A stretch of 64,000 bases of DNA from Maylandia zebra. Taxonomy: Eukaryota > Chordata > Actinopteri > Cichliformes > Cichlidae. Below, piece after piece: positions 14,143-63,258 of this stretch (positions within the stretch are counted from its first letter, which is position 1; each line of letters starts with the position of its first letter). The notes under the pieces are model-generated. The model saw only the letters and a list, made by a program, of their open reading frames with translations, had not been told where the DNA came from and searched no databases. The DNA lies in NCBI RefSeq assembly GCF_041146795.1, contig NC_135187.1:25405056-25469055 (forward strand), given 5' to 3'. The translations under genes were made by a program, and so were the position numbers.

Positions 14143-15179
14143 TCAGTGTGCTAGTTTGTACATTGTTTCTTTATTGGAAAAGTGTGTTTGTTTAGGATTT
14201 TAGAAAATGAATCCTTGTCATCCGTATTGATCCTGCTTATCTTTGGTCTGTGATCTGTTAATTAGTGGTTAGGATTATCAGATAGATTTGCAGGCGTCAC
14301 CACTTTCTGTAGGATGATTACCTAAGTGTCCTAAATGGTTAGTTGTTAGATTTTCTTTTCTATTCTTCCAAATATGCTGCTACAGCTCAACACTGTTTCT
14401 GCCAAAATCATCAAGCACAAGAACACCACAGAGCATCCTGTTCCTCCTTCAAAAATGTCTTTTTTTCCCTCAAATCCAAAGAACGTTTGCCAAATTCTTT
14501 TGATGCCTCAATGAGTGACATTGATATCTATCCATGCAAAAAGCAATGACATCAATTCATAATCTGCTGCTTATCTGAGCCTGGGTCAGTCAGGAGAGAA
14601 GCTCAGACCTCCGTCTGGTTGGGTAAACGGATGTAGGGGTGTGTGAGGTTGTGTTAACATATTGTGAGTTTTGTGTTCTGTACAAATCGTTTTAGATATT
14701 TTGTACAATTTAATTTGTTGAAAACAGCAGGTTGAAAGCGGTTTTTGTATCTTTTGTGACAAGATGAACAAACTACCTGTGCTGCGCTGCCCTTTTCACT
14801 CCCACATGCTGATCCAAATCTGTTAGAAATACGTGCATAGATACATTTGGATAACTTTCTCTCAGCATATCTACACTGAATTAAAGAAAGCATAGTTTTT
14901 ACAGTAGCAAATGAAATATTTTTAATGAAGCAATATCTTGAGATTATTTTTATTATATTAGTGATTTCCATTTAAAAATGACTGATACTCAAATCTGACT
15001 TTTAAAAAACATTATTTTACACATTTCTTCACAGACAGCCTGAATGTAACATAAATCTTCATAATTTAAGTGCTTTTAAGCTTCATGTATCTTTCAAAAA
15101 GACATCCAGTATTGTCTTTTAACATGGTCCCATGATGACAAACCTTTAAAAAAAAGAAAGAAAATAAAATCCTGAATTT

Positions 15180-18282: not shown

Positions 18283-21200
18283 ATGAAGCTGAAATTACCA
18301 AACCCAGGACTGGATGACCGAATCCCATCTCATGAAGATTTGGAAAGGATGGAAACCGAGGAGGCTGGGGACAGGCCCAAATGGGACAACAAAGCCCAGT
18401 ACCTCCTCACCTGCGTGGGCTTCTGCGTGGGACTCGGTAACGTCTGGAGGTTCCCGTACCTGTGTCAAAGCCATGGAGGAGGTATGCAGGGACGTGTGGG
18501 GCAGTAGATGTGAAAGATATTTGAATATAGACTAGATGCCACAAAAGAAAATATCAGTGGATTTACTTTGTTTTTGCTAACAAAAGGACACTATGGATTT
18601 TAGTGATTAGAAAGAAATTATACCATTTGAGAAATGCTTTTGTTAAAAGGTTACAACCAAGTGATAGGACAAAGCATGCAGACATGTTGTATCAACACAA
18701 AGAACCCCACGGTATGAATTATGGAAATGCCCGTTTTATTCACCATAAATAATCAGATATAGATGCTGACTAGATTTTTATTGAATTTTATTTCTATTTA
18801 ATGAAACTCAAAAAAATAAAGTCTTTCTTGAGATAAATGCTATGGGAAAGGTAATGTGTGAGTCTTATTCTTGGTTTGTACAGTTCCTAGTTTAGCTAAT
18901 AAAAAGCTGCTTTTCACAGTTTACAAGTATCTTTGTGCTTAGTTTCCTTTGTTAAAGTGTCTAACAAAGTGAAAATCTCACCACTTTGCTAATTCATTAT
19001 GAATGTGAATGTTGTGCTTTTAGGAGCGTTTATGATCCCGTTCCTTATCCTGTTGGTTCTGGAGGGAATCCCGCTGCTGCACTTAGAGTTTGCCATTGGT
19101 CAGCGCCTGAGAAAAGGCAGCGTGGGAGTGTGGAGAGCAATCAACCCTTACCTGACTGGAGTTGGTGTGTACAAAAAAAAACATGCATGTGTGTGGGTGT
19201 GTGCGCCTTCGTATCTTTGTGTTTTATTGTGTCTATGTTGGCAAAATGGCTCCACAGACAGCAATAAGTTATAATTCCCGTAATGGCTAAATATCTCATG
19301 TATTAACTAATTTAGAGTTTTTAGAGGATGGAATTGTTCTGTTCTTCCATTAGGTTTGCTTTTGCAGCAACGGTTACTCAAGCTAGGTTTTAATACAAAA
19401 TACAGACCGAGTAATCATTCCTATCCAAGCATTTAGAAAAAAACACTCAATATTGGGATCACTTAAGTGTACACTGAGCACCATAATGAGACCAAATTCC
19501 TGCCAAGCATATATCATATGTAACATATATAAACATAGCACTTACTATGCTGTCATGCTAAAATAAGCTAGCAAACATGGCCCACATCTTAAGCAGATAA
19601 TCACTGTGAGTTTTTCCACTGCTTTCTTCATTCTTTTGCAGGCATTGCATCGTTACTTGTCTCATTTTTGGTCGGTATGTATTACAACACCATCATGGCC
19701 TGGATCATGTGGTACCTGTTCAACTCCTTTCAAGATCCTCTGCCTTGGAGCCAATGCCCTCTCAATGCTAACAGCACAGGTGTGCCTTCATCTAACAAGA
19801 GGTTACAATAGAACGTTATGCGATGATTAGCCTGCCATCAAGTTGCTCTTGCTTGTGCCGTTTGCAGGTTTAGTGGCTGAGTGCGCACGGAGCACCACTG
19901 TTGACTACTTCTGGTACAGAGAGACTCTGAACACTTCAGCAGCCATTGATGACTCTGGAGGTTTGCAGTGGTGGATGGTGCTGGCCCTGTTCGCTGCCTG
20001 GACTCTGCTGTATGTGTGCTGCATTCGTGGCATTGAGACTTCTGGCAAGGTCTGAAAAATCACAATGTCTAAGAAAAGGAAGTGATTTTTACATGTAGGT
20101 TTGCTCAGATATACACGTGCCATCTTTCTTTTTTCAGGCTGTCTACATCACCTCCACTCTCCCATATTTTGTCCTCACAATCTTCCTCATCAGAGGATTG
20201 ACTCTCAAAGGCTCTACAGAGGGAATAAAGTACCTCTTCACACCAGATGTAAGGGTTCAATGTATCACATGTCACAAGAATCAGAAGGGACAAGATGAAC
20301 TTATTTGTCATTATGGTTTTTGTACAGTTTTACAACGTCTGTGGAGAATTACTCAATAACGTCAGTGAAACCTGGACCTCATTGTTTCCACTCTTCATGC
20401 TTAGCTAAGCTAGATGGCTGAAGGCTCATATTTATTGCACAGACATTACAGTAATATATGGTTATATAACTGTTAGAAAGTGTACTTACAGAGATACAAG
20501 CCTATTTCTTTAAGCTATTATTTGCCGTTTTAAGACACCCAGGCCTGAAACATGAGAGCAGTAAACCTTTATCACAGGACTGATAAAAGCTGATATAAAA
20601 GCTGATACTGAAGGCTGAAACGCAGCACAGTTAGTACTGTAAATTCCAATACATAAGTAATCTAGATAGGCACTTTAAAGCCAAATTACCTGGTGACAAT
20701 TGTGCAATTGTGCATTGTGTGTACCCTCTTAGATTATTAACTAACAACAGCCAGTGAGGTGGGAAAGTGTCCGTTTTAAAATTCTGTATAGGTCAGAAAT
20801 CTGCTCACAGCTCAATAAGAATGCTTATCTTTGGATTCTCTTTAGGTGGATGAGTTAATGAATCCACAGACTTGGTTGGATGCAGGAGCTCAGGTTTTCT
20901 ACTCCTTCTCCTTGGCTTTCGGGGGCCTCATCTCTTTCTCCAGTTACAACTCTGTTCAGTGAGTAAAGGTCTTGATTACACAGTCATAATGGAACTCACT
21001 GTCCAGCAAGTGTCCTCACGCTATGTCCCTTTAAAATCTACTTGCAGCAACAACTGTGAGCAAGACGCCGTTCTCATCTCCATCATCAATGGCTGCACCT
21101 CGGTGTACTCTGCAACGGTGATCTACTCCATCATCGGTTTCAGGGCAACGCAGAAATTTGATGAATGCCAGGGAGAGTGAGTTTCAGTTTGCACAAAAGA

Positions 21201-23123
21201 TGACATTACAATAGGGGGAAAAAATGAGAGAGTGAGATTTACTTGTATCTAGATAGACTCATATGAGTTTTTTCTTACTTTTTTTCAGTAACATCCTGCA
21301 TCTCATCAATGCCTTTGACTACCCTGAAACCTCCATCACAATAGAGAACTACGATCAGGTTCTGACCAGCCTAAATCAGACAAATCCAGATATCATCCAA
21401 GGTTTGCCCTTAAAAACCTGCGACATTCAGAATTTACTCAGTCAGGTCAGTGGAGCCTTTATTTTTTTGTATCCTGTTAATTCCCTGATTATTTGCCAAG
21501 TTTGAGTGTCACAAAAATGATTCAAAATCGATTCAGAACTTGAAAGATTTGCCCTGTACCGCTTCAGGGTGTGGAGGGAACGGGCCTGGCCTTCATCGTT
21601 TTCACAGAGGCCATCATCAAGATGCCTGTTTCACCTCTCTGGGCAGTCCTCTTTTTCATCATGCTCTTCTGTCTCGGCCTTTCAACTATGTTTGGGAACA
21701 TTGAGGGAGTGGTGGTTCCCCTTCAAGACCTTAGAGTTCTTCCTCAAACTTGGCCTAAAGAAGTTTTTACTGGTAACTTTCTCACATTGAGAACTTCTTC
21801 ATAACCACCATGGAAAACTGGGTATGATTGTAACCGCCTGCTTGTGTTGTTTTTTCAGGTCTTACTTGCTTAATATCCTTTGCTCTTGGGCTCATATTCA
21901 CCCTACGCTCTGGGAACTACTGGCTAGCTCTTTTTGACAACTTTGCAGGCTCAATCCCCCTCCTAATCATCGGTTTCTGTGAAATGTTTGCAGTTATCTA
22001 CATCTATGGGATTGATAGGTAAGTGTGCCCATCCTTAGGTGATCATTGAGTCAGCTTCCAAAGTAATGACCTTCTAGGTACTTTATCAAACATCCGACCA
22101 TCTAAACAGAATCATGTTTGTACTTGTCATTATGGGAAAGTTCGCTTTCCTGGTATTTTCATAAGAGGCAGAAAAGATCAGTGTTCAGTGAGGCAACCAA
22201 CAGTTCTTGTTAGAGTTCAAACAAAGCGTTGCCTTCTGACCTTGCAGTAGAGATAATGTAACTCATCACAGCAGAAGTGTGTTTTAATGTTGCAACAGGA
22301 AGGGGAGGAATGTGTAAAATGTACTTTTGGCTTAGAGTTTCTGACCATGCACATGAAAGCAGTTAAGTTGACTTATTTATAACAATTATCTAATAGTTAG
22401 AAGAAAAGGTGCAAAAAAGGTGGTGTAATATACATCTTTTAATGTTGTCAATTTGGACTCAAAGTTAGCTTAGAGAAAAATAACAGACTACAGTCTGCTT
22501 TGGTATCAGCCAGTTGAGCAAACAGTGACATGTGATGCTTTATTTACTGTAACTAATAAAATCTACAAGGTTGCCTTTTATGGATGATTTTTACACGTAT
22601 GTATGTCTCCCTCTTATTGCTTTCAAACAGGTTCAACAAGGACATTGAATTTATGGTTGGCCACAAGCCCAATATTTTCTGGCAGGCAACATGGAGAGTG
22701 ATTAGCCCACTCCTTATGATCTTCATCCTAATTTTCTACTTTGTTACCCAAGTCACCAAAGATTTAACCTATCTGGTGTGGGACGAGGAAGCGGTAAGTT
22801 TGTTGTTCACAGTAGTTTACAACAAGTTTTTACATACAGTAACTGCAGGAATAAAGATGTAGTTTGATGTTTTGTGCTGCAAAATGTAACTTTTTTGTTG
22901 ATCCCGATCACAGGCGAGCTTTCCCATACTGGAAGCACGTCCCTATCCCTCTTGGATCTATGCCATCATCTTTATCCTTGCTGGAATTCCCAGTCTGGCC
23001 ATCCCCATTTTTGCGCTCTTTAAATTTTTCCAGAGGAAGTGCTGCAAGGACAAAAGCTACAAAGATCACCCAGTGGACACTATCTCAGCCAAAATAGAAA
23101 TGAACGGCAAAGCAAAGTTCTAG
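18283..23123 (+). CDS. slc6a19: Neutral amino-acid transporter B0AT1 (SLC6A19), copy A
   Basis: Twelve exons give 635 aa: 18283-18481, 19024-19164, 19642-19779, 19868-20049, 20138-20248, 20846-20958, 21048-21176, 21289-21445, 21568-21772, 21859-22018, 22631-22793, 22914-23123. All introns are GT-AG and the frame stays open. The start [15 protein letters not shown] sits in a GCCACCATGA context and matches the family start. TM1 reads [16 protein letters not shown]. The TM6 unwound region reads YSFSLAFGG (Ser277, Ser279, Phe282). Asn309 matches LeuT Na1 ligand Asn286, and TM8 has LGLSTMFGN. Large-loop N-glycosylation sequons are NST, NTS and NQT. SLC6A19 carries neutral amino acids with sodium across the apical membrane of gut and kidney cells, helped by ACE2 or collectrin. 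This copy keeps all the canonical site residues and is the closest of the array to mammalian B0AT1. Its tail is longer than those of B and C. No AATAAA signal was found just downstream. Confidence 0.92.
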
Positions 23124-33399: not shown

Positions 33400-36300
33400 A
33401 TGAGACTGGTACTTCCTAACCCAGGACTGGATCTCAGAATCCCCAGGCATGAAGATCTGGAGAGGATGGAAAAACAGGAGGCTGCAGACAGACCCAAGTG
33501 GGACAACAAAGCTCAGTATATACTAACCTGTGTGGGGTTCTGTATCGGTCTGGGTAATGTTTGGAGATTCCCTTACTTATGTCAGAGTCATGGAGGAGGT
33601 AAGCTAAGACAGAAAGGGCAAGATAACATATCTGGTTAATAATCAGACAATTTAGTGATTTACTGATTTTAAAAAATGTGTGTTTGTGGTATACAGGAAG
33701 TAATTTTTATATTAATCTAATAATTATTATTATTAATAATAATATTAATATGCTTTTCTTTAAATAATTAAAACTTTAACTGCAACAAAATCACTTGACC
33801 TTTGTACCAACACTTAAATGGAGTTAAATTGTCACCAATTCATTAATACAAGAGAGTGCCCTTAGGTTTGCAGTCAAGCTGCATTAATGATTATACACCA
33901 AGATGTCCCCTGAGTCCAGCTGGTTAAGTTTAAACACAATCTTAATTATGTAATGAGAGGTGTTGACTTTTATGCAGTTACCTTATTGCACTCAAATATT
34001 TTTAAAATATGCATTTATTTTGTAATTTAATCATTCTTTTTAAATCGTTAACTCAAGCACAGTATCATGAGCTATAGCAACGAGTGTCCTTTCTGTGCAA
34101 TAGTGATGGTGTATACTGATTAATACAAAACAGCAATGTGACCTTTCAGGTTGCACTGACACGAAATCTTATTTTTAGCCTACAAAAAAAAAGTGCTAAA
34201 TATAGCCAAACACATCTATGACTAACCATAGTGATAAACGTCGCCCATCGTATTTGTACATAAGAGCATATCTAACTTTTAGGGCCACACAGTTGCTAAT
34301 GGCTAACTGCTATTAATAACTTTTATTAGAAGATGTTTTAAATTATCATAAATATGTCGAATTTTGAACATTTTTAAGTTCCTACACACTTCATCGTGTT
34401 GTCGCGTTATCAGACAGAATCAGACAAACGGACACTTGTCAAAAACATAAAGCATTAAAATGTAGACTAACAGAAAACACTTCATTTAACAAACTCAGAG
34501 CCTTGTTCAAAAAACAAAAATGAACCCACACAATCTGATTATCAGTCCACTTCTTGTGTAATTTGGAATACTTAGCCTTCATGTACATGGATAAACTGAA
34601 GGGTTAGACGTATCTCTGGGGTCCTGTGTCAAGTTCTTGCTGGATCTGTTTTCTATTTATTCAGGATGTGACTTTCAGGTACTGTTCATCAACAAATCAT
34701 TGTTCCTCCACCACTGTATGAGGTCTTTGGGCTCATATGCTGTGTTAATGGCCAGACATCTGCACTTTGGGTTTTATTTCTGTCCAGCGTACAACGGCCC
34801 TCTTTTACTGATATGTCTAATATGACAAAATTACCATCAAATTTATGAAATGCGCAAAGCAGTCTGTTTTGTTCTTACCATCATGCGTAAATTGAATCTG
34901 AATCATTCTGAACCAAATCCGATTTTTTCCATTAAATAGACACACTTGCCTCTAGGTGAAGCAAAGAAAGTGGTGATGATGTAGCAAGGGAGGAGCTTGC
35001 ATCACCATGCCAAGAAAGCAGAAACTGAAATTATTAAGTTCAAAGAGGAAGCGCAGCTTTCCATTGGAGTGATGAAAGCCTCAAAAATGTAAAAGGAAAA
35101 AAAAAGAGCCTCTGGCTGAAAAAATGAAAGTTCTGAATATAATTTTTCCTGAGATGATCACTGTGGCTCAAGTAAGAAAAAGATTGGACATCAAACCCGA
35201 TATGTTAAAACACTAATAGACTACAAGAAAAACAAGAAAACATCTCATGGTCGGTTAGACCGAAATGAGAAAACCACTGTGGTTAAGAAAAAAAAGCAAA
35301 GAAATTAGACTTTAAATGATGACATCCAGCAATGATAAGTAATTTTAATAAGATGATTAGTAGTAGTAACAGTATTAGTGGTGGTATTTAAATTTTCTAA
35401 GAGAACCTGGCCGTTGTTTGTTCGCGTGAATGGTTAGAGGCAGTTTAGATTTATTCATATAGCACAGGCTAATTCAGTTAATAAAGCACTGATTTGAGAA
35501 TAAAACATTCATGTGCATGACTTACACCCACAGTCGTGTATGTCTGTCATGGCATTAGTTGTTCCCCAGAATTCTGTGCTTGAAAACAGTTGTGTGTTAC
35601 TTTCACCTGTTAATGATATACTAACAATCTCTAACCTACTTAAATATATTTGCAGGTGCATTTTTGATTCCTTACCTGATTCTGCTGGTGCTAGAAGGAA
35701 TGCCTCTCTTACTGCTAGAGTTTGCTATTGGGCAGCGCCTTAGAAAAGGCAGTGTGGGAGTGTGGCGGGCCATCAGCCCATATCTGACAGGTGTTGGTAA
35801 GTAAAATGGTCCCTGCAAAAGAAACCAAAAATACCCAGTGTGTGGTTTTTAGTGATTGTGATGATAGATGATTAATGCTGTCCCTCAGGTATTGGCTCCA
35901 TGTTAGTGTCCTTTATGGTTGCCCTGTACTACAACACCTTAATTGCCTGGATCATGTGGTATTTCTTCAATTCCTTTCAAGATCCATTGCCTTGGACTAA
36001 TTGTCCTCTCAATGAAAACAGGACAGGTATTTGTACACTGATTTTCATCCCACACACACAAATCATAGCATCTGTTTTGCTATGTTTAAGAGTGGGTTTT
36101 TTTTCCCACTTTAGGATTTATACCAGAATGCCAGCAGAGCTCCACGGTGGACTACTACTTTTACAGAGTCACTCTGAATGCTTCTAACTCAATAGCAGAC
36201 TCTGGAGGACTCCAGTGGCCCATTATAATATGTCTGTTAGCTGCCTGGACAGTTGTTTGTATCTGCTGCATACGAGGGATCAGTACTTCAGGCAAGGTTT

Positions 36301-38812
36301 GTAGAACCTTAAATAAAATGATCACTCTTTACTCTGCCAATGTTCCTATTTTATTCATTAACGTGAGTATCCATCCCTCCATCCATCCATCAGTTTTCTT
36401 CTGCTTATCTGGGGCCTGGTCGTAGGGACAGTACCCTGAGCAGAAAAGCCCAGATCTCCATCTCCTTAGGCATCTCCTCCTTATCTGGGGAAGTGCAACA
36501 CAATCCTGGTCCAGCTGAGAGATATAACATTTCCAACATGTCTTGGGTCTGCCCAAGGGCCGGGGTCCGGAAAGAAATGCCAGGAAACCTTACCCAGGTG
36601 GCCCCTGGAGGCATCCTAGTCAGATGCCCGAACCTCCTCAACTGGCTCCTTTCGATGTGGAGGAGTGGCAGCTCTACTCTGTGCCCGTCTCAAATGACTG
36701 AGCTCCTCACATTATCACTAAGGGAGAGAGACCAGTCACCCTTTGGGGAAAGCTCATTTCTCCAGCTTGTACCCACAATCTCATTCTTTCCGTCATTACC
36801 CAGAGCTCGTGACCTTAGGTGAGGGTAAGGGATGTAGATCGACCAGTAAATCATCAGCTTCGCTTTTACACTCAGCTTTCTCTTCACCACAACAGTCCGG
36901 TGCAGCGTCCACATCCACGTCAGAGCCATTTGTTAATCCCTCGCTCCCCTCACTCGTGAACAAGACCCCGAGATACTTAACTTCCTCCACCTGGTGCAGT
37001 AATTCGTCCCTGACTTAGAGTGGGCACTGCTCACTTTTCCAGCTGAAATCCGTGGCCTCTCATTTCAAAGTGCTGATTCTCATTCCTGCTGCTTCACATT
37101 CAGCTGTGAACTGCTCTAGAGTAAGCTGGAGGTCTTCACCTGATGAAGGCAACAGGGCCACATCATCGGCAAAAAGCAGTGACGAGATTCTTAGACCACC
37201 AAAGTGGAAGACTTCCACCACAAAGCTGATTAATCTAATGTATTTTTAAAATCTGGAATTTTAAAAAGACATTTAATATGATGCATTGATAGCATTAAGC
37301 TAAGTACCAGAATAGGTTTCCACAAAAAAAAGAAAGAAAAAGCATTGTAAATTATGAAATTTTGTATGCTAATTGTTATAGCTACATTTCCATCCCACAA
37401 GTTGTTCCACTCTCATTTCTGTCCTCAGGCAGTCTACATCACAGCCATCTTGCCATACATAGTGCTGGCCATCTTCCTGATCCGAGGACTGACTCTTAAA
37501 GGTGCCCTGAGTGGAATAAAGTTCCTCTTCACACCAGATGTATGTTTCAAATCTTGATTTTTTTTTTAAAGTATGAATTTAAAGGTCAGAAATACATGTC
37601 AGTGTGTGTCTCCCTCTTGCAGGTGGAAGAGCTGATGAATCCAACTACTTGGTTGGATGCAGGTGCACAGGTCTTTTATGCTTTTGGCTTAGCGTGGGGA
37701 GGGCTGATTTCCTTCTCAAGCTACAACCCTGTTCAGTAAGGAACTGCACTTTTAGCATTTTGTTCACTTTAATTTAATTTCTTTAAAAAAAAATGGGCAA
37801 AATAAGTCATTGAAAACTGTTCCAAAAACCAAAGTCAGGCTGTTGTTTCCTTGTTCTTTTTGCACATTTAATTTCCAAAGCAACAACTGTGTGCAAGACT
37901 CTGTGATCCTGTCTGTGGTAACTGGCCTCACCTCAGTCTATGCAGCCACAGTGACCTACTCCATCATTGGCTTCAGGGCCACTGAGAAATATGACACCTG
38001 TATCAACAAGTGAGTAAAGCTTATTTTAAGGCTTTGAAAAAGTTTACTACTTTTTGGTAAAAGGCACTAAACTTACTGACCAGGAATTTAAAAACCCTGT
38101 GACGTCCAGGTACCCCTACCCCTTAACACCATGCTTTCAGCAAATGTAATTTGCATCTTTTGAAAAATTTTCTCCCAAGTCTTGTAAAAAACAAACATTC
38201 TGGCTTTAGCACAACAGAACTATTAGCTTCTTTTCTGCAAAACATTGAGTTAAGGTTGTAAAGGTTTTTATCCTCTTTGTTGACTTCACAGTGTTCAGTT
38301 ATAGGTACAAAGGTTTTAAAGTCAGTCTAATGAGATCGTCATCATTGCAAGCAGTCTGCCTGTAGACATGACACCAGCTGGTTTGTCAGTCAGCACACAG
38401 CACCACAACATCCTTATATATTCACATCAAGCTACGGCAAAATATGTGTTTAATGTGACTAGAAAATGCTAACATGCTTAACTCAATTGTGGGGATGGTA
38501 AGAATACCTGATGAACACCTGCATTTGTGCATTGCCATTATAAACATATGTAAGCATATCCTTTAAGTAGATAATAGTAACCCCGAATTACTAATCTGAT
38601 GTAATTTCTCATCAGAAACATCAGGACGTTACTAAATGGATTTGAACTCCCTGAAGACAGCATCACTGCCAGCAACTACAATGCAGCCCTTCATCATCTG
38701 AACAGCTCCAATCCAGATACTGTTTTTGGACTGGACATTAAAACCTGTGACATGCAGAAACTCCTCAGTGAGGTGCCTATTTTAATGAAAATCTATTAAG
38801 TTCCCATGATAA

Positions 38813-38843
<31 letters not shown>

Positions 38844-40472
38844 TTATATTCTAATCTGCATTGCATTTGTTCAGGGAGTGGAGGGAACAGGTCTGGCCTT
38901 TATAGTCTTCACTGAGGCCATTACCAAAATGCCGGGTTCCCCAGCCTGGTCTGTCCTGTTTTTTATCATGCTTCTCTGCCTCGGACTCTCAACAGTTTTC
39001 GGAAACATTGAAGGAGTCGTAGTCCCTTTGAAAGACTTTAATTTATTTCCCCAAAAATGGCCCCATGAAATATTGACTGGTAACTTAGCTTTATTTTATT
39101 TTATTTTATCTACATTTGATGCATTCCTCAGAATTTTACATTTAAATTGAACATTTTTAGAGTTTCTTGCTGGATTTTTAACAAAAGATCCATTGTTCTT
39201 ATTTTTTAGGAGCAACATGTTTTGTATCCTTCATCATCTGCCTCCTGTTTGCACAACCATCAGGAATTTATTGGTTAACTCTCTTTGATAACTTTGCTGG
39301 ATCTGTTCCACTGCTGACCATTGGATTGTTCGAGATGATAGCTGTTGTTTACATCTATGGCATTGACAGGTTAGTAGTGCTTCCATTTGTTAGCAGAGCT
39401 GCTCTGTGCAGCGTTATGGCATAATAATTTTAAGGGAGAATAAAAAGTCGACACACATATCTCATTCCTGACGGAGGACTCTACCACTACACTTCTCCAG
39501 TCCATTCACAGAGTCGTTGCATGGTAAGACATGGATAGGAAGTGGGCGGAGCCTTTTACCGTCATTTTATTACGACGCAAAGTACAAACACCTGTGGACA
39601 CACAATCCAACACCATTAATTTCAGCTGCATATTTGGAAACTCAAGTAAAGTGTCAGGAAGAGTAGCTTTACATTTCACTACTATTAAGCTGCATAAGGT
39701 AGCTCAGCTTTCTGCAAAGCACAAAGAACAACGGGGTTAGCTTGGTGCAGGCATTTCAGCACATATCAAGCTAAAACAAACAGTTCAGGTATTAAGGGAA
39801 ATACCTGAACTTAGACATTAAGATTCTTTGTCCGTTTGGAAAAGCAGCATCAAAAAGTGGTAATTTTTTGTATAACATGATGTGAAGCTAACTGAAATTT
39901 TCTTGTTTGGCAGGTTCAACGAGGACATAAAGTTCATGGTTGGGCGAAAGCCTTCTATTTTCTGGCAGATTACGTGGCGATTTATCAGTCCTCTGATTGT
40001 CCTGGTTATTTTGGTTTTCTACCTGGTGACTCAAGCCCAAAAGCAGCTCAACTATCTAGTCTGGGACATAAATTCTGTAAGTTTGCAACCACCATCCTAG
40101 TTACTGAATCAACTTAAGCACCTCCTCTTTGTTTTGCTTTGTATCTTAATGTTCACTGATGCAATTATATGGCGTCCCAAATGTTTATATTTATCATCAT
40201 AAGTAAAGTCAAAAGACAATAAGCAAATTGGCAGCAGTCACATAGCTTACCAGTTTGAAAAGTTATTGCATAAACTCATAATAGGTTGTTGGATTTTTTT
40301 CATTGTTCTTTTACAGGAGAAATTTCCAGCTTTGACATCAATACCCTACCCCTCATGGATCTATGCTGTTATCTTCCTCTTAGCAGGAGTCCCCAGCCTG
40401 GTAGTGCCTATGTACGCATTATGTCGGCTGATCTTTGTTTGCTACAAGAAAAAAATGTCATCCAGACTATAA
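33400..40472 (+). CDS. slc6a19-like: B0AT1-like transporter (SLC6A19 family), copy B
   Basis: Twelve exons give 617 aa: 33400-33598, 35656-35796, 35889-36026, 36115-36296, 37429-37539, 37623-37735, 37881-38009, 38616-38772, 38875-39079, 39210-39369, 39914-40076, 40317-40472. Exon lengths equal those of copy A except the last. The start [15 protein letters not shown] is very like human B0AT1. TM1 is [16 protein letters not shown], and the extracellular sequons are NRT, NAS and NSS. TM6 reads YAFGLAWGG, so the positions equal to LeuT Thr254, Ser256 and Phe259 are Ala277, Gly279 and Trp282. The Na1 Asn is Thr309. This predicts altered sodium or substrate handling. The tail is short and basic ([10 protein letters not shown]). 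Intron 4 carries an antisense LINE. Intact splice sites and an AATAAA at 40744 argue for a working gene. Confidence 0.9.
36365..37215 (-). mobile_element. LINE fragment in intron 4 of copy B
   Basis: On the minus strand, reverse transcriptase text is readable in broken frames: [20 protein letters not shown] (FADD near 37156-37176), then [14 protein letters not shown] and, further on, [12 protein letters not shown] and [17 protein letters not shown]. The last is the usual end of fish non-LTR elements of the L2/Rex1-like type. A (CCAT)n run at about 36368-36393 is the element's own 3' tail. It is 5'-truncated and has frameshifts. It lies antisense to the host gene and does not touch the splice sites. 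Confidence 0.8.
38811..38843. repeat. (TTA)n microsatellite in intron 8 of copy B
   Basis: About ten uninterrupted ATT/TTA units lie about 30 bp upstream of the exon 9 acceptor. The matching position in copy C lacks the run. Confidence 0.8.
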
Positions 40473-42429: not shown

Positions 42430-42530
42430 GACTTCTGTGCTTCCGTACACTCATGGACACCGTGAGATGGGTACTTTCTAACCCAGGTTTGGATGTCTGG
42501 ATCTCCACTCATGAACATTTGGAGAGGATG
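42430..42530 (+). pseudogene. Truncated SLC6A19 exon 1
   Basis: The sequence follows copy B's 5' UTR and first 23 codons or so: WVLSNPGLDVWISTHEHLERM against [21 protein letters not shown]. The position equal to copy B's ATG is GTG (42462-42464). An ATG nine bases upstream is in frame by chance. Similarity stops abruptly after LERM at 42530, with no TM1 and no donor. Presence of the 5' UTR shows a DNA-level duplication, not a processed copy. Confidence 0.8.
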
Positions 42531-49747: not shown

Positions 49748-52700
49748 ATGAGACTGGTTCTTCCCAACCCAGGACTGGATCTCAGGATCCCAAACTATGA
49801 GGACCTGGAAAAGATGGAAAAGGAAGATGGTGACAGACCCAAATGGGATAACAAAGCTCAGTACATTTTAACATGTGTGGGCTTCTGTGTAGGGATTGGG
49901 AATGTGTGGAGATTCCCTTACTTGTGTCAAACCCACGGAGGAGGTAAGGCCAGAAGAAAACAGTAAAGCATCGCATTATTTCTGTCTCCAATTACAGTAT
50001 TGTCATTTTTTATTGCAGTGTTATAGAGGTTTGTGGGTATGTTGCTGTTTTTGTCTTTTAAACATTTTCCTGAATTAGAAAGAATTAGAAAATAGTTTTA
50101 AAAGTTACAAAATCTGTGTGTCAAGGAAACTTAGTGGAAGCTTTGGAAATTAATACTTGACATTTGTAAGTGTCTGAATCCCAACAAAGCTACATTATGA
50201 TATTTATTTTAAACATTGCCAATAGAAATAAGCCACAAACAATTTAATGAATGGGACAAATTGTTGTCAAGATAAATTTGGGAAGGTAAAAGGCCCTGAA
50301 TTAGATTTAAAACCATACAATTGGCTAAAGGAAAAGGGGGGTGGGCCCTTACTTCTCTCAAGGATCATTATTGGGCAGCAAACATAATGTTTGATAAATT
50401 AAAGCTACGTTTTAATTGAAGCAGAAATTATACAGTGTATTAAAGATTTTTTATTAGAGCTTTATTTTAAGCTGTGACCTTTTCCTTCAAATAAACAATA
50501 ATAATAATAATTTTTTAAATTCATGGAAAACAGAAAAAAATATTAGCTTTGACTCCACCACTGATCTCCACCAGTCTTAGCTTGATAGCCCACAAAAGCT
50601 GTCAGTGTCATGTACTTGCTATGGCAATGCCATCTCAGAAATCAAGAGTTTAATCTATGATAACAGTGTTGTTGCTTAAACAACAATTGCCCTTCTGCAC
50701 ATGTACAAAAGTCATGTGTGTCGGTGGCTGTCTAATTCATGCACACTCTAGCATTGTTCAGTAACGAAGAAACACATTCACTGGGGGGGGGGGCATTTTT
50801 AAAAAGCCATTTTTAAAAATTCAAATATTAATGTCACTGATCTCCCAGCAAGCCCCTGACAGTTTTTGTTAAACTGCTGGTTGCAGCTCACCAATCTACA
50901 CCACTGCTGAGAATATGAACCGTGCTCCCACTCTCTTTGAGATCTCTATCTTTGTGTATATATTTTTCATAGGTGACTATGGGATCTCATAATTATCTGG
51001 AATTTTCTGAATGGGCGTTTAGAGCCGTTACATGTATATCACATGTATAACATATCAATGTTCACACATGGAACAGCTGATAAATGGTAAATGGCCTGTA
51101 TTTGTATAGCGCTTTACTAGTCCCTAAGGACCCCAAAGCACTTTACAGTACATTCAGTCATCCACCCATTCACACACAGGTGATGGCAAGCTACATTGTA
51201 GCCACAGCCACCCTGGGGCGCACTGACAGAGGCGAGGCTGCCGGACACTGATGCCACCGGGCCCTCTGACCACCACCAGTAGGCAACGGGTGAAGTGTCT
51301 TGCCCAAGGACACAACGACCAAGACTGTCAGGGCCGGGGCTCGAACCGGCAACCTTCCGATTACAAGACGAACTGCAACTCTTGAGCCACGATCGCCTGC
51401 ATAAACCAGCTCAGCTCAGATTTAATAGCATCTGACTTCCAAACCTTATTCCACTACTAAGTATCTAAGTATGTGAGGTATTGCAAACACCTCTGACTGT
51501 CTAATTGTGCTGCTGATCAACATGTTCCAGGTGCCTTTTTGATTCCTTACATCATCCTGCTGGTGCTAGAAGGATTGCCCCTTCTGCTGTTGGAGTTTGG
51601 CATTGGCCAGCGACTCAGGAAAGGCAGTGTGGGCGTGTGGAGGGCCATCAACCCCTATCTGACTGGTGTTGGTAAGTAACGGCCTCTACAACCACATACC
51701 CAAGCAACAAATGGGAGAATTATCGGTACTACAGGAACACAAAGTTGTTAATGAAAGCTTGGTCCTGTGTAAATGTGATGTTTGTTAATGATCCTTTCCT
51801 ACAGGTATTGCTTCCATGCTGGTCTCTTTATTGATTGGCCTGTACTACAACACCTTAATAGCCTGGATCATGTGGTATCTCTTTAATTCCTTTCAAGGCC
51901 CACTGCCTTGGACCCAGTGTCCTCTCAATGACAACCGAACAGGTAGCTGAAAAGACACAAGCACATACTTAGAATCTGTTAGTCTCCAATATCTAATCAC
52001 AAGTGTGGACTTTTATGCATTTTCAGGCTTTATATCCGAGTGTCAGCAGAGCTCCACAGTGGATTACTACTTTTACAGAGTCACTCTGAATGCCTCTGCC
52101 TCAATAACAGACTCTGGAGGACTCCAGTGGCCCATAGTGATCTGTCTGTTAGCTGCCTGGACAGTCATCTGTATCTGCTACATACGGGGGATCAGTACTT
52201 CAGGAAAGGTTTACTGAACTTTTTTTCAAAAACAAGCATTGCTTAATCAGTCTTATTGCTGTTATTTGACAATTTTTCACATCTTTTCATGACCTCAGGC
52301 AGTGTACGTTACAGCCCTCCTGCCTTATGTAGTGTTGGCCATCTTCCTGATCAGAGGACTGACTCTTAAAGGAGCCATGAACGGAGTGAAGTACCTGTTC
52401 ACACCAGATGTGTGTATTTCAAAGTTCTATCATAAATATACATCATGTAACATTGTGTAAATATCTTAATACAAAGCCACATTACACTGTGTATCTCACC
52501 CTTGCAGGTGGATGAGCTGATGAACCCAACAACCTGGTTGGATGCAGGTGCCCAGGTCTTTTATGCCTTTAGTTTAGCATGGGGAGGCCTGATCTCCTTC
52601 TCAAGCTACAACCCTGTCCAGTAAGACTTATAAAGAAAGGCTTATATTTTCTGATAATCTAGATCAGATCTCTAATCCCCAGTTTCTGGGCTGCCTTTCC

Positions 52701-55700
52701 TCAGAACAGCCACCCCTCAAGACTCTCACCATTTAAAGCAATGCATTATCAGGGACTGCAACATCTAGTCCTTTTACTGAATGTATCACTACATGACTGT
52801 TACAGTAAGATTCGACTCACTTCTATTTTTACTTTCTTTCGCCAAGCAACAACTGCATGCAAGATGCGGTGATCCTGACTATTATAACTGGCCTCACCTC
52901 AATCTATGCTGCCACAGTCACCTACACCGTCATTGGCTTCAGGGCCACTGACAAATATGACACCTGTATCAGTGAGTGAGTAAAGCTTATTTTAAGGCTT
53001 TGAGAAAGTTTGCTACATCATTTTAGTAAATGTCACTAAACTTGCTGACTAGGACTTTAAAAACCTTTTGAAAAATTTGGAACTTTTGAAAAATTATTCT
53101 CATTTTTCTTGCAAAAAACAATCATTTGAGCTTTAGCACAACAAAAATTATTAACTGGTATATATGTATATGTATGAAAAATGGACAGCTTGTTTATGAA
53201 GAGTTGAGCATTTTCATCATTGACATCTTGATTGGAAAAAAAAGATTTAAAAAAGTGCCACAGCTATCGCCACCTGGTGGCTTTTTTTATAGAATGCAGC
53301 TTTAAGGCTCTTCCATATTTGCTTAATTTTTCTAACCTAGATTTGTCAGTGTTTGTAATATTTAAGATTCCTAAATTAACTTTCTTGTGTTTTTCTTTTT
53401 CATCTTTAATTAAAAATCTAAAAAAGGTTATTTGCATAACTAATGTATACTCCTGTAATTACTATTCTCAACTGTAATGTCTTCTTAGAAACATCAGGAT
53501 GTTACTAAATGGATTTGAACTCCCTGAAGACAGCATCACTGCCAGCAACTACAATGCAGCCCTTCATCATCTGAACAGCTCCAATCCAGATACTGTTTTT
53601 GGACTGGACATTAAAACCTGTGACATGCAGAAACTCCTCAGTGAGGTGCCTATTTTAATGAAAATCTATCAAACTCCCATTTCCCATTTTTATTCTAATC
53701 TGCATTGTGTTTGTTCAGGGAGTGGAGGGAACAGGTCTGGCCTTTATTGTCTTCACAGAGGCCATTACCAAAATGCCGGGTTCCCCAGCCTGGTCTGTCC
53801 TGTTTTTTATCATGCTTCTCTGCCTCGGACTCTCAACACTTTTTGGCAACATCGAAGGAGTCGTAGTCCCTTTGAAAGACTTGAATTTATTTCCTAAAAA
53901 ATGGCCCCAAGAGGCACTGACAGGTATTCTGTTTCAAAGACTAAACAATCAACACGTCGGCCTGCAACCCCAATGTTAACACAAGCTCCCTTGTTTTCAT
54001 GTCTTTCAGGAGTAACGTGTCTTGTATCCTTCATCATCTGTCTGCTGTTTGCACAGCAGTCAGGCCTTTATTGGGTAACTCTCTTCGATAACTTTGCTGG
54101 ATCAATCCCACTGCTGACCATTGGCCTGACTGAGATGATAGCTGTTGTTTACATCTATGGCATTGACAGGTTAGTGCACAAAGTTTATGTACTTTTAGAT
54201 AATATTGTATTATATAAAGCAGCCACACATCTGTAAAATCAGGAACATGATGTCCTGTAACCTTGTACAATCAGGCTGTCATCAATCTTTATTTGGTGCA
54301 TTTAGCACAGTTGGACAACAATTAAATATTTAAGAGCCTATGTTATGCTCATTTCCAGCTCCAACTTTTATTATTTGTAGCTTTGCACAATCCACTGTTT
54401 AAAAGCATTTCTCATTCAGCCAATATTTGTCTTTGGTGCAGCCCCACCCTCTTTTTATGCCCTTTAAAACAACTTCCTTCTGACTGACTGCCCCTCCTAA
54501 ACATAACATTTGAACAACATGCGTGCAGAGTTTCTTTGCTCACAGCCAGAGCCGTGTGTCTGAGATGATAGTTATCCTTTCTCGCTCAACTTTTCATAAA
54601 AGCAGAAGTAGGGATCATTTGTACACATGCTGACCTCATCATTTGAAACTTTGTCCATCCACCACTGCAGACTGTCCCTTAAAGCAATCACCTTGCACAT
54701 TGCTTCTACAGGTTCTAACTTTACTGTTTACTGATCTTTGTATTGGTTCTACTTTAATATGAGTCTATTTACTTTTTGTTCTTTCATTTTTGTTTTTGTT
54801 TTATTTAAATAAAGTTATAATTCCATGAATTAAATCAAGTTTAATTTCATGAAAACCCTCTTGTGTGACAGGTTCAATGAAGACATCAAGTTCATGATTG
54901 GAAAGAAGCCTTGCATCTTCTGGCAGATTTCCCTGAGATTCACCAGCCCTCTCATCCTCCTGGTCATTTTAGTTTTCTACCTGGTGACTCAAGCCCAACA
55001 AGAACTCACCTATTTAGTCTGGGACCCCGACTACGTGAGTTCACAAAGACCACTTCTTATAAAAATCTGTGAAATCTGAAAAAAAAAGGAAAAAGAAAAC
55101 AATCAACATTATCTCTCAGAATCAGCTGTTTTTCTTTTATGTTATTTTACCACATTTAATGAAGAAATTTCATTTTTACCTGCTTAATATAAAAAAAACC
55201 TCCAGATTTTCATTGTCAGACAACAGGACAGGTTTACAGGTTGTTTTCATGGATTGAAGCGGGGAGTTGACAGCTATTGCAAAGCTGCAATAACTCCTTC
55301 AACTCTCCTGTTGGGTTCAAAAAGTTCAGGAAGCCTCGCCCTGTTGGTTTCATCAACGGAGCTGCAAGCTGTTTAATTGGCGTGTCGGGTTGGAGGGTTG
55401 AGTCAAACAAATTATATTTCCATCCAGCCAAACTTTATGGCACCAACTGAGGTTCACAAGCTCATGATGACCAGTTGGAAGCCCCCTATTTTAATGATAT
55501 CATGACAATCAAGGTAGCACATGGCTTTTTTAAATGTGCTTTTTATTGTAGTACAAAAAAGTTAGCTGAGGGATTCAGGTGGGGGAGGGGCCCCTCATTT
55601 AATTTTTATATATATTTGCAATAGTTGCTTGTGTGAAGTTTAAACAGTAATGAAAACAGGCTTGTTTGCTCATTGTGATGTTTTATGGTTTGCAGGACGA

Positions 55701-55866
55701 ATTTCCAACTCTGGCATCAGTACCTTACCCTTCATGGATCAATGTGGTCATCTTTGTTTTGGCAGGAATTCCCAGTCTGGTGGTGCCTGTCTATGCCTTG
55801 TGCAGGCTGGTTTTTGTACGCTGCAAGAAAAAGATGAAGCCAGAGAAAGACATTAATCAGATATAA
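49748..55866 (+). CDS. slc6a19-like: B0AT1-like transporter (SLC6A19 family), copy C
   Basis: Twelve exons give 621 aa: 49748-49943, 51531-51671, 51805-51942, 52027-52208, 52299-52409, 52508-52620, 52847-52975, 53489-53645, 53719-53923, 54010-54169, 54872-55034, 55696-55866. The start is [15 protein letters not shown] in context AACCATGA; exon 1 is one codon shorter than in A and B. TM1 is [18 protein letters not shown]6 reads YAFSLAWGG (Ala276, Ser278, Trp281), and the Na1 Asn position is Thr308. Sequons are NRT, NAS and NSS. The tail is [14 protein letters not shown]. It is closest to copy B, with exon 8 almost identical. All splice sites are intact and an AATAAA lies at 55910. Transport of neutral amino acids is likely, but the site changes leave coupling and substrate range open. 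Confidence 0.9.
51083..51405 (+). repeat. Dispersed repeat in intron 1 of copy C
   Basis: It starts 'aaatggcctgtatttgtata', 'gcgctttact' and ends 'ggctcgaaccggcaacctt', 'ccgattacaa', 'gagccacgatcgcc'. This is the more complete copy of the family seen at 9111-9253. It resembles the 3' part of a widespread fish retroposon; the family name is unknown to me. Confidence 0.65.
53267..53280 (-). promoter_or_regulatory. CTCF-like motif (one mismatch)
   Basis: The minus strand reads CCACCAGGTGGCGA, matching CCASYAGRKGGCRS except for the last base. It is in intron 7 of copy C. The core is also a near palindrome (CCACCTGGTGG), so E-box-type factors are an alternative. Confidence 0.25.
54360..54540. repeat. 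Possible dispersed repeat in intron 10 of copy C
   Basis: 'tatgttatgctcatttccag' and 'atttgtctttggtgcagccc' recall a short non-coding repeat frequent in fish introns. No ends or duplications were found. Confidence 0.25.
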
Positions 55867-57968: not shown

Positions 57969-60900
57969 ATGGGAAAAGACGCTGGGCCGGAGGAGAGACC
58001 CAAGTGGGACAACAAGGCTCAGTATCTGCTGACATGTATTGGTTTTGCAGTGGGAATCGGAAATGTGTGGCGATTCCCTTACCTCTGCCAAATCTACGGA
58101 GGAGGTGAGATGCTGCCCTTTTACTCACTTTACACCATCGCTCCTACTGTAAGAGTATCTGTAAGAGTCCTGTTTAATCATCCAGTGTAGAGATGCTTTA
58201 ATCGGTTTGCATTTCCATTTTGTTTCAGTAGGTATTAACGAACAAACCGGGTCGGTCCCTGAACCTGTCTGGAAATGAATAACTTTATGTATACCTGATT
58301 AACCATGGGAATCATTACATACTGTTTGTGAGGAATATATCCACCTTTGTTTGCTTCCTCATACTTACCCAGAGAGATACGCCGAGTCCTCATGCCACGG
58401 AGTTCTATAGGAGCCTGCTCTGGGTCAGGCTGTGTAAACAGCCAGTCCAGAAAATGTGTGTGGGCTCTATCACCTTCACATATTGACTTCCCAAAAGACT
58501 GTTTCTCAAATCTGCTGAGCGTCTGTTTAACTTTGGCTTAGTCTGTTTAATTGAGTCACGTTTTTCTATTGTTAATCTCCCCTCAGATTTGTTTGGTTTG
58601 GAGCTCGTACGGTGAAGCAGCGAGGTGACACGAGAAGTTAATAATTGTTTTAAAATTTTGTAAATATAGTGGGTTTTTCTTTTTAAAAAAAAAAAAAAAA
58701 AGTCAGCCCGATTCCCAGCAACCCAGTGTGTTTTCATTAGCAGAGCTTTGCACTGTAATCATAAAAATGCCTAACTGTAAGATAAATATTTACTTCATGT
58801 CTTCAGGTGCATTCCTCATCCCTTACCTGATAGCGCTGGTGTTTGAGGGCCTCCCCCTGCTCTTCCTTGAGCTGGCTGTAGGACAGAGGCTCCGGAAGGG
58901 CAGCGTGGGTGTCTGGAAGACCATCAATCCCGTAATCGGTGGAGTAGGTGGGTAACCCAAAAAGTAATAGTAAATGTTTTTATGTACTCTACAGTTATAC
59001 TATTCGAGTGTGTTGCTTTATTTTAACGACATATTAGTTAATCTAAGATTCTTAGTTGTTTTTCAACCCTTTAGTCAACTGTATCATGTACAATAATAAA
59101 GTAGAAAGTAAAACAGAATAACCAAAAAATAAATGTTTCTTTTGTTGAAATTGACACCGGTCAAAGATTCCTCATTTTTAAATTCAAAAAATAAAATTAA
59201 TACCTGAAAAAATCTTTCTTATGTGCAGGCATCGCCTGTTTGATTGTATCGTTTCTGGTGGGCGTTTTCTACAACACCATTCTGGCCTGGGTGCTGTGGT
59301 ACTTCTTCCACTCTTTTCAGGAACCCCTGCCGTGGAGCACCTGCCCACTAAATGAAAGCCGCATAGGTGAGACAGGAGCACACCTCGGTATTATTCTTGC
59401 TTGATAAATTTATGGCCATACGCCGTGATTCTGCTGCTGCTCCACTGTTTGCAGATTTAATAACAAAGATAAAGTTTAGGATTATCAGTAAAGATTTATG
59501 GCTGCCTGCCACGCTCTTGGTAGCATTTCAAGAGAGATTCAGTAAAAAAAAAAAAAATACTGCTGGACAGCTTTATGGCACAAAGGGAACATTGCACCAC
59601 AACATAAAATAAAAAAGACAATGATTTTTTTTAAAGATAGGTGCAACTAAGCCATGAGATGAACAAGTAAATAGCAATGATGATGCAGTGTTGGGACTGT
59701 TGACGCTCTGCTGAATTTGTAATTTTACACACTTTTAAACAAATGAACAGTATTTTGTGGTAGTTTCATTTTAATGGAGAGACACAATACCAAACACACC
59801 AAAACATGATTTAGAGAAAATCCTTGTTGGCAATCACAGCGGTGAGACGTTTCCTGTAGTTGGTCAGCAGGTTTGCAAAATTCTCAGGAGGATTTTAGTT
59901 CACTTCTATTTACAGAAACTCCAAATCTTTTAGGTTTCGTGGCTGCTGTTTGGCAACTCAAAGTTTCACTCCACATATTTTCTATAGGACTGAGGTCTGA
60001 AGACTAGGAAGACCACTCCATGACCTTAATGTGCTTCTTCTTTAGCCACTGTTTTGTTGCCATAAAGATCTGTTTTGGGTCATTGTCACATTGGAAGACC
60101 GATTTGTGACCAACGTTCAGTGTTGCAGCTGCGGGTTTCTCATCCAAGATGTTTCAGTACGTGGGCCCATACATTGGCACCATTTACAGAAAAATAGTCC
60201 CAAAGCATAATGCTTCCAACTCCATGCTTGAGGCAATTGTAATTTTATATTTGTTCTATTTACAAATAGTCGCACCAGCAGTTATCTTCTCACCAACCTT
60301 CTTGTCGATGGTGCTTTGGCCCATTCCAGCCTTATGCTGGTCTACAAAATCTTTTGCGTATGTGTGTCCATGTAGACTATAATTTGGAGTGTAAGAAAAG
60401 CACTCCGGTAAATTACTTCTGGTACCGTGAAACCCTCAACATCACACCTGACATCGAGATCAGCGGCTCCGTGGAGTGGGGGATGGTGATCTGTCTAGCC
60501 AGCGCCTGGTGCATCGTCTACATCTGCTTCATCAAAGGCATCGACTCCGTGGGAAAGGTCAGTGTAACTACCAAAAACATTTAATATTTAATGATAGGTT
60601 GCAGAACACTGGACGCCTAACCCTGTGCTATCACGATATGTGGTTTCTATCTTACAAAACTGTTCTCCCAAGTCATTACATCTGTCATTTCCCCCCAGAA
60701 AACATGTTATTTTAATGTTTCTATATATTTTCAGGCTGTGTATGTGACATCTACCTTCCCTTACCTGGTGCTGACTATTTTCCTGATCCGTGCCCTCACT
60801 CTGCCTGGAGCTACTGATGGACTGTTGTACCTCTTCACCCCTGATGTGAGTTGGAGTGAAATTTTTAATCTTTTGTCCCACAAACAGCTGATTTCCTAAT

Positions 60901-63258
60901 CAGATGTTATGCTCGTGACAGTGGCAAACCCTGACGGACCCACGGGTGTGGTTGGACGCCGCCACGCAGATCTTCTTCTCTCTTTCTGTGGCGTTTGGAG
61001 GTCTCATATCTTTCTCCAGTTACAATGAAGAGAAGTAAGGACAGACACTTCTTAACCTCCCCCGGTGAACACGGGGTGATTAGTAAGCTCGTCTTTCTCT
61101 CGCTCTTTGTGTTGTTAGAAACAACTGCGAGAGAGACGCTGTTCTTGTGGGAGTGATAAACAGCGCAACGTCTATCTACGCCTCCATTCCGATTTTCTCC
61201 ATCCTGGGGTTTAAAGCCACCACCGCCTTTAACGCCTGTAAAGATGAGTACGTAAGCATGCCTATTTTAGGTGGGGTTTTGCAACTACATCTTTGCCTGA
61301 TCCTGAGTACTTACTCTTCAAATCTTATCTGCAGGAACATCCTGGCTCTGACCAATTACTTTGAGTTCTCAGACCAGAACATAACCCTGCAGAACTACGA
61401 TTACTGGTATGAATATCTAAATACGACATATCCAGAGAAATTCCAGAGTCTGTCCCTGAGGGAGTGTGATCTACAAAAATTACTTAAGCAGGTACTCACT
61501 CCATCTTATAGTCATTCTTCTATCCTCGAGCCCCTCCATCCACAAACACTGGTCATTTTCAGACATTGCCATTTCAAGTATCCTCATTAGCTTCTTGTTT
61601 TTTTATCTTCAGAGTGTTTCAGGTACTGGCCTGGCTTTTATCGTGTTCACTGAAGCGGTGATATCGATGCCGGGCTCGCAGGTATGGGCCGTACTGTTCT
61701 TTGTCATGCTCTTTAGTTTAGGTCTCTCCTCCATGTTTGGTAACATAGAGGGTGTCCTCGCGCCCCTCAATGAACTCAAACTATTGCCCAGGTGGATGCC
61801 CAAGGAACTCATATCAGGTACTTGCACATCAGCTTGTGCTTTTTAAGTCAAAAACAATTTCCTTTGAATTCCCTCTTTTAAACTTTCACCTTCTTCACTT
61901 CTGCAGCGGTCATCTGTTTGATATCCTTCTTGGTGGCGCTCCTCTTCACCTTGAGCTCAGGCAACTACTGGGTGGAGGTGTTTAATGGTTACGTGGGATC
62001 TGTACCTCTGCTCATCATTGCTTTATTTGAGATTATTGGAGTTATTTACTTCCGTGGAATGAAAACGTAACTTTTTCTCCTCTTCTTCCTGAACATAACA
62101 CTGTAAACTTCACTAACAATCATAATTCATATCCGTTTTACGTCTCCTCTGCCAGTTTCAGTGACGACATCTATATCATGACTGGGAGGAGGCCAAACAT
62201 CTTTTGGAAGGCGTGCTGGATGGTGATCAGTCCTTTACTGCTCCTGGTGGTGTTTGTTGCCTATGTGATTGTCCAGGCACAGACACGTCCCACCTATCAA
62301 GCATGGAACCCAGATTATGTAAGCAGGAAAGCCAAGAATTGAAGAATGAATCTACTCATAAGTCAAGATTTTATTAGGTGCAGTTTGTTCGCTCCTCTAT
62401 TTATCTTCAGAACTGCTCCAATTTTCTGTTCCATCACATCCCAAAGGTACATTACTGGATTGAGATCTTTTAATTGTGGAGACAATTTGAGTACAGTGAA
62501 ATGATCTGAGCTGCGAGTCATAGCGAGTTATCCTGAAGGAAGATGCTACTAAAAATCAAACTGACTTCTGAAATGAATCCAGCAGCCAGACTTTTACCTG
62601 AGAAGCGACTATCTGTAATGTCTGTTAACAAACAAGCAAGAGTTTAAAAATGTCTATCAAAACCTACATTTTAACAAATATGTCGATTAATAAATATAGA
62701 CCGGCGGGATAAAATGACAGCTCAGTCCTTTATGGGATTTTATGAGCCTGAAATATCTCTTGGTTGGTTTCGATAACCTTAAGTTAGCCCTAAAGCACTA
62801 AAACAGCAACCACTGACCAAAGTGCTGGACACAGCAATAAAAAATAGAATTTAAATAAAGTAAATCAATATAAAAAATGAATTGAATTAGTCAAGCTAAG
62901 CTAATTGCCTGCTTGCTGGTTGTTGCGCTCTATTTAACCCGAAGAAAGAAAATTAGCGCATTTTACCAATTTTAAACCATATTTTATAATTAAATAAATA
63001 AATGTCCTTCATTGTTTCCACCTTGATCTTTCTTTTCAGGAAAAATTCCCTGAAACTGAAGAGAAGCTTTATCCAGACTGGGTCTTTGCCATAATCATCC
63101 TCCTCTGCGTGGTGCCTGTGATTTCCATTCCTCTGGTGGCCCTCTACCAGCTGCTTCGTGGCAGATTCAGAAAGTCCTCGGTTGGGATGGAATTGAATCC
63201 CTACGACAACGACGCCTTCGTGACTGACACACAGGAACAGAAGACTCAAAGGGCTTAA
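57969..63258 (+). CDS. slc6a18: Neutral amino-acid transporter B0AT3-like (SLC6A18)
   Basis: Twelve exons give 617 aa: 57969-58104, 58807-58947, 59229-59366, 60376-60557, 60735-60845, 60922-61034, 61119-61247, 61335-61491, 61613-61817, 61907-62066, 62156-62318, 63040-63258. It lacks the LPNPGLD N-terminus of the other three; its 45 codons of exon 1 begin [20 protein letters not shown], as SLC6A18 does. TM1 is [16 protein letters not shown], then [36 protein letters not shown] and [10 protein letters not shown] also favour SLC6A18 over SLC6A19 or SLC6A20. TM6 FSLSVAFGG (Ser256, Ser258, Phe261) and Asn288 keep the usual Na1 residues. Sequons are NES, NIT, NIT and NTT. Mammalian SLC6A18 is a renal glycine and neutral amino-acid carrier adjacent to SLC6A19. 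A Tc1 fragment lies just before exon 4. Exon 7 uses a GTACGT donor. Confidence 0.88.
58684..58700. repeat. Poly-A run
   Basis: About 16 consecutive A in intron 1 of slc6a18. It may be the tail of a decayed retroposon, but no body is visible. Confidence 0.6.
59690..60372 (-). mobile_element. Tc1-like transposon fragment in intron 3 of slc6a18
   Basis: On the minus strand the frames read [32 protein letters not shown] (60360-60290), then [23 protein letters not shown] and, leftward, [20 protein letters not shown] and [11 protein letters not shown]-like text. This is a Tc1 transposase with an internal deletion and several stops. The N-terminal part of the element reaches to within a few bases of the exon 4 acceptor at 60375. 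No terminal repeat was found on that side. Confidence 0.7.

Follow-up and report, generated by a model that had tools for sequence, protein, structure and literature searches.

Shared changes at the substrate and ion site of two tandem slc6a19 paralogues in Maylandia zebra

The slc6a19-slc6a18 array

The window, that is, the whole 64-kb stretch of DNA that was analysed, carries four intact gene models of 12 exons each on the forward strand: three slc6a19-like genes, referred to here as copies A, B and C, and slc6a18. Copy A (18283-23123) encodes 635 residues, and the slc6a19 paralogues copy B (33400-40472) and copy C (49748-55866) encode 617 and 621, respectively; slc6a18 (57969-63258) gives 617 residues counted from the first Met. 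All four models are predicted, with GT-AG introns, and the order of intron phases is identical in each (1,1,1,0,0,2,2,0,1,2,0). The interval 37623-38009, to which the first-pass annotation had drawn attention, covers exons 6 and 7 of copy B with intron 6 between them.

Tilapia slc6a19a and slc6a18 are reported to have 635 and 617 residues (PMC5859172), equal to copy A and slc6a18 here. Twelve gene-specific primers given for these two genes of Mozambique tilapia in the same paper find their counterparts at coding sites of slc6a18 and copy A or just downstream, differing at 10 of 253 bases. It has been reported that slc6a19 adjoins slc6a18 in human and zebrafish (PMC8015242), and this synteny is kept in the window, where the same-strand order is A, B, C, slc6a18. 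Elsewhere in the genome, no slc6a19b ohnologue at slc6a19-level identity was found among the best candidates that were scored. The tilapia gene named slc6a19b, reported as more than 10-fold weaker (PMC5859172), may correspond to B or C. An slc6a18-like SLC6 gene does lie outside the window (L056, C11:19222700-19224200), and its TM6-TM7 segment is closest to slc6a18.

Several other traces were noted along the array. An slc6a19 exon 1 remnant at 42462-42530, between B and C, points to a decayed extra copy, the other exons of which were not found nearby. Upstream of A, a degraded SLC6 stretch (14056-14322) resembles exons 9-10 and contains stops. Intron 4 of copy B (36297-37428) is 1132 bases long versus 90 in copy C, apparently because of an insertion. 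An open frame at 24344-24766 matches DUF5641 (E 7.3e-25), a family known from retroelements, and two dispersed repeat pieces (9302-9676 and 59710-60181; 72-73% alike) are probably transposon remains.

Side chains at the Na1 site and in the substrate pocket

The pair of Na1 side chains that is typical of SLC6A19, Ser at the position of LeuT Thr254 and Asn at that of LeuT Asn286, is absent from copies B and C. It is present in copy A (Ser277, 20903-20905; Asn309, 21088-21090), in slc6a18 (Ser256, 60979-60981; Asn288, 61159-61161), in human B0AT1 (PDB 8wby chain) and in human SIT1. Instead, copy B has Ala277 (37680-37682) in exon 6 (37623-37735, TM6) and Thr309 (37921-37923) in exon 7 (37881-38009, TM7), and copy C has Ala276 (52565-52567) in exon 6 (52508-52620, TM6) and Thr308 (52887-52889) in exon 7 (52847-52975, TM7). 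In the spliced models, these residues and their numbers are exactly those that had been given in the first-pass annotation.

The same annotation had run the alignment from TM6 to TM7 without a gap. This was confirmed across A, B, C, slc6a18, human B0AT1 and SIT1, but not once LeuT was included: MAFFT then opened a gap of four residues in the loop between TM6 and TM7 and placed LeuT Asn286 on Ser313, a residue that is retained in copy B (37933-37935) and as Ser312 in copy C (52899-52901). A gap that shifts the Asn, which had been named beforehand as evidence against the residue assignment, did appear in this sequence-only alignment. The gapped mapping was nevertheless rejected, since the site residues of solved relatives demand the gapless reading. 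The chloride ligands of SIT1 are reported as Ser251 and Ser287 (PMC11217458) and the site residues of SERT as Ser336, Asn368 and Ser372 (PMC6590891, PMC10707687), and these are spaced as LeuT 254, 286 and 290 are, at 32 and 36 residues from the first. The gap induced by LeuT is therefore judged to be an alignment artefact.

In SERT, the equivalents of the two positions also line the chloride site (PMC6590891), on which the first-pass annotation had been silent. At the chloride-ligand position of SIT1 Tyr47, Tyr is found in B (35673-35675), C (51548-51550) and slc6a18, and Phe in A and human B0AT1; the equivalents of Asn27 and of SIT1 Ser287 are retained in B and C. At the five Na2 positions, B and C equal A, except for Ile49 of copy B, which replaces Val at LeuT 23. 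At LeuT Ser355, Thr is found in A, B and C and Ser in human B0AT1. Those gate positions that could be checked, LeuT Arg30, Tyr107 and Tyr268, are retained in both copies.

To judge how unusual Ala254 and Thr286 are, 31 further SLC6 loci (L039-L069), a selection from the SLC6 hits of the same genome, were compared; L150 and L151 were taken as the same genes as L067 and L069, and TM7 of L046, L053, L062 and L063 was scored on exon readings. Position 254 was Ser in 26 and Ala in 5 of the 31 loci. Position 286 was Asn in all 28 loci resolved there (L059, L067 and L068 were unresolved), including the five with Ala254, which are presumably SLC6A15/17. Among the best 80 of 588 bacterial relatives, a set that was retrieved with LeuT as lead sequence and is biased to LeuT-like proteins, position 254 was Thr in 69 and Ser in 11, and position 286 was Asn in 79, the remaining one having no coverage. 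Thr286 thus occurred in none of the 28 resolved loci and in none of the 79 covered bacterial proteins. Ala254 is not unusual by itself, and Thr286 is the rare part. A search of limited depth in the fish slc6a19 literature recognised no paper describing these residues of B and C.

The changes at the central site extend beyond this pair. Human B0AT1, SIT1, A and slc6a18 agree in 206 alignment columns. In 12 of these, B and C have a change in common, and three of the 12 fall within the 10 invariant substrate- or ion-ligand columns (hypergeometric P 0.014); this test is post hoc, as the ligand columns were chosen after the data had been seen, most of them being taken from the SIT1 paper and the Asn286 equivalent being included in addition. 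The third shared ligand change is Phe to Trp at LeuT 259 (Trp282 in B, 37695-37697; Trp281 in C, 52580-52582), which takes two base changes from the codon of A (TTC to TGG). At LeuT 256, copy C has Ser278 (52571-52573), and copy B has Gly279 (37686-37688). Both the shared Trp and the change from Ser to Gly in B had been missed in the earlier two-residue picture, and they would speak for a change in substrate selectivity no less than for one in cation use.

Trp259 combined with Gly or Ser at 256 is the pattern of GlyT1 and GlyT2, as seen both in PDB chains and in the glycine-transporter-like genes of this genome: Gly256 is common to GlyT1 and copy B, and Ser256 to GlyT2 and copy C. In these transporters, GlyT2 W482 and GlyT1 W376 are said to shrink the S1 pocket; W482F was reported to admit alanine and leucine to GlyT2, S479G to admit sarcosine, and LeuT F259W, as part of a triple mutant, to confer glycine affinity (PMC8602798). 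In SIT1, Gly253 is tied to the proline preference, and G253S raises the relative transport of leucine and alanine (PMC11217458). The same paper connects the space for large side chains with the positions of Phe47 and Asn434 (human B0AT1 index without Met), which are unaltered in B and C. The five Ala254 loci have Gly256 like copy B, but at 259 four of them have Phe and one has Tyr, and it follows that copy B, in its predicted protein, joins features that are found apart in other SLC6 loci.

By overall likeness, B and C belong with SLC6A19. They have 64% identity to human B0AT1 (PDB 6m17, 8wby), align with it gaplessly over TM6-TM7 and share most of its TM1, TM3 and TM8 ligand positions. They differ from it in that Ser277, Phe282 and Asn309 (indices without the initiator Met) are replaced by Ala, Trp and Thr, Phe73 by Tyr and, as also in A, Ser430 by Thr. 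Copy B, as an approximate protein, matched human B0AT1 with 929 bits, and among the matches listed none to GlyT2 or GlyT1 exceeded 392 bits. Unlike B and C, which are slc6a19 paralogues by sequence and position, the glycine transporters retain Ser254 and Asn286. B and C resemble them in the predicted pocket only, as proteins that may work alike, and are not members of SLC6A9/SLC6A5. With SLC6A17/NTT4 and SLC6A15/B0AT2 they share Ala at LeuT 254 (NTT4 Ala308, PMC11416165), but the Asn286 that accompanies it in the SLC6A15/17-like loci is absent.

Origin, selection and gene conversion

In a tree of six proteins, the SLC6A19 part was resolved as (human B0AT1,(A,(B,C))), with support of 86/87 for A+B+C and 100/100 for B+C, and the branch that splits A, B, C and human B0AT1 from slc6a18 and SIT1 received 100/99. 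The alternatives in which human B0AT1 groups with A (p-AU 0.108) or with B+C (p-AU 0.074) were not rejected. The B+C stem (0.278) has roughly double the length of the branch that leads to A (0.144).

The B and C proteins are 85.2% identical (525/616), and their genes differ with a dN of 0.077 and a dS of 0.516 (dN/dS 0.15). Exon 6 has a pN of 0.023 and a pS of 0.395 (dN/dS 0.04), and its Ala is retained although the codon is GCT in copy B and GCC in copy C, whereas exon 7, which holds the Thr, is less constrained between the copies (dN/dS 0.47). That Ala, Trp and Thr were kept while synonymous sites diverged speaks for function, more firmly in exon 6 than in exon 7. Decay of B and C, which the first-pass annotation had already argued against, is rejected on these ratios and on the 12 intact exons of each copy.

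The two copies have also exchanged sequence. In exon 8, a tract at 38616-38772 in B and 53489-53645 in C (forward strand) is 99.4% identical without any synonymous difference, whereas pS is about 0.62 in exons 1, 11 and 12; the observed run of 62 codons with an identical third base had no equal in 20000 shuffles. This tract reflects recent gene conversion. In exons 6-7, third-base differences are mildly reduced (19/81 versus 96/264; P 0.03). Because of this conversion and of the sister relationship of B and C, their shared Ala, Trp and Thr are attributed to one origin. They had earlier been counted as two genes testifying separately, which does not hold, and an independent parallel origin in B and C is unsupported.

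Sodium coupling and substrate range

The first-pass annotation had taken the two changes to suggest altered cation coupling and not decay, and this interpretation is supported in part. Replacements at position 286 have been costly elsewhere. In LeuT, N286Q was reported to lower substrate affinity by about two orders of magnitude and Na+ affinity about sevenfold, with ligand bound but no transport seen, and the position affects the affinity for Na+ and K+ (PMC10945697). In KAAT1, where the corresponding residue is D338, D338C and D338G were non-functional, while D338N and D338E altered ion selectivity (PMC8310414). Given these mutants and how unusual Thr286 is, an effect on Na1 is still plausible. 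Ala254, on the other hand, is precedented beyond the five loci of this genome. NTT4 is reported to have Phe307, Ala308 and Phe313 in TM6 and to carry one amino acid with one Na+ (PMC11416165), and by spacing these residues correspond to LeuT 253, 254 and 259. In the bacterial TuriSERT, S230A, which is the same change, had a negligible effect; the same paper cites profound effects of N286S and T254A in LeuT (PMC10707687).

B and C can be explained best, with a chance somewhat short of even, as Na+-coupled transporters of small neutral amino acids that are under purifying selection, are driven mainly through Na2 and have a weakened Na1. From the side chains we infer the following course. The central substrate and ion site of the slc6a19 tandem paralogues would have been rebuilt before B and C split. 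Both would have stayed Na+-coupled symporters, mainly Na2-driven, moving each amino acid with about one Na+, a ratio reported for both B0AT1 and NTT4, and Na1 would be weakened or altered by the replacement of Asn286 with Thr and of Thr/Ser254 with Ala. Trp at LeuT Phe259 would narrow the pocket, by which glycine and alanine would be favoured over substrates of leucine size. Copy B, with Gly at LeuT Ser256 (the state of GlyT1 and SIT1), should accept N-methylated or imino substrates too, and copy C, with Ser there (the state of GlyT2), should refuse them.

This Na2-driven, small-substrate explanation draws on the intact models, the purifying selection, the Na2 positions that are nearly those of A, the glycine-transporter-like residues at 259 and 256, the long stem of B+C, and the precedents of NTT4 and of TuriSERT, which was proposed to bind Na+ at Na2 only (PMC10707687). 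Against it, a short steered simulation of B0AT2, mentioned without data in its source, moved proline with the Na1 ion only (PMC11416165), a result that tells against Na2 driving transport in this subfamily. That the glycine transporters keep Ser254 and Asn286 also counts against it, as their ion site differs from that of B and C. So do the unchanged Phe47 and Asn434, the looser exon 7, the lost transport of LeuT N286Q, the tree support of only 86/87, and the fact that the LeuT F259W effect was seen just within a triple mutant. A more pointed version, in which B and C would be a fish B0AT1-derived lineage with a convergent glycine-transporter pocket that gave up the Na1 Asn, making them natural Na2-only symporters of glycine-size substrates with a selectivity like that of GlyT1 in B and like that of GlyT2 in C, is unlikely.

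Thr and Ser hydroxyls act as Na+ ligands elsewhere in the fold, as LeuT Thr254, Thr354 and Ser355 do. Na1 might thus still work in B and C, with the Thr hydroxyl standing in for the Asn carbonyl and both copies being ordinary broad neutral amino acid transporters in which the substitutions are tolerated. The retained Asn27 and Ser287 equivalents and the tolerance of TuriSERT to changes at two Na1 residues (PMC10707687) agree with this. It is nonetheless unlikely, if with some real chance, as Asn286 is present in every resolved relative besides B and C, both among the loci of the genome and in the bacterial set, and Phe to Trp is unlike a neutral change.

Alternatively, altered cation coupling may be the main event, such that, with the Na1 side chains lost, the driving ion, the stoichiometry or the acceptance of K+ would differ, as with changes at this position in insect KAAT1. 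The rarity of Thr286 and the influence of this position on ion selectivity in KAAT1 and on Na+/K+ affinity in LeuT favour such a change. KAAT1 and CAATCH1 (PMC8310414) and TuriSERT (PMC10707687) likewise carry a natural replacement of Asn286, but theirs is Asp, with a carboxylate that Thr does not have. KAAT1 also differs at LeuT Gly20 and Ala22 (PMC8310414), where B and C have Gly and Cys as in human B0AT1 (Gly46 and Cys48 in B), and the K+-accepting type does not fit them. As half of the supposed pair is precedented in Na+-coupled transport and the substrate pocket was altered along with the ion site, we regard this explanation as unlikely too. Very improbable is a non-transporting role for B and C, such as partnering ACE2 or collectrin. 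In its favour one may cite the inactive LeuT N286Q and KAAT1 D338C/G, the ACE2-contact features common to SIT1, B0AT1 and B0AT3 (PMC11217458) and the two TM4 contact positions, which are Ile in both copies and in slc6a18. Such a role sits poorly with the low dN/dS overall and in exon 6, with the retained gate, and with the different appearance of a decayed copy such as the exon 1 remnant between B and C.

If the Na2-driven, small-substrate explanation is true, the array would provide a natural experiment on which sodium site drives B0AT1-type transport, and on a possible evolutionary link between the size of the pocket and Na1; the three copies stand side by side in one genome and are directly comparable. 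The substrates of B and C may be smaller amino acids, or their use of sodium may differ, and work on the fish gut in which just one slc6a19 gene is measured would then overlook functionally different copies.
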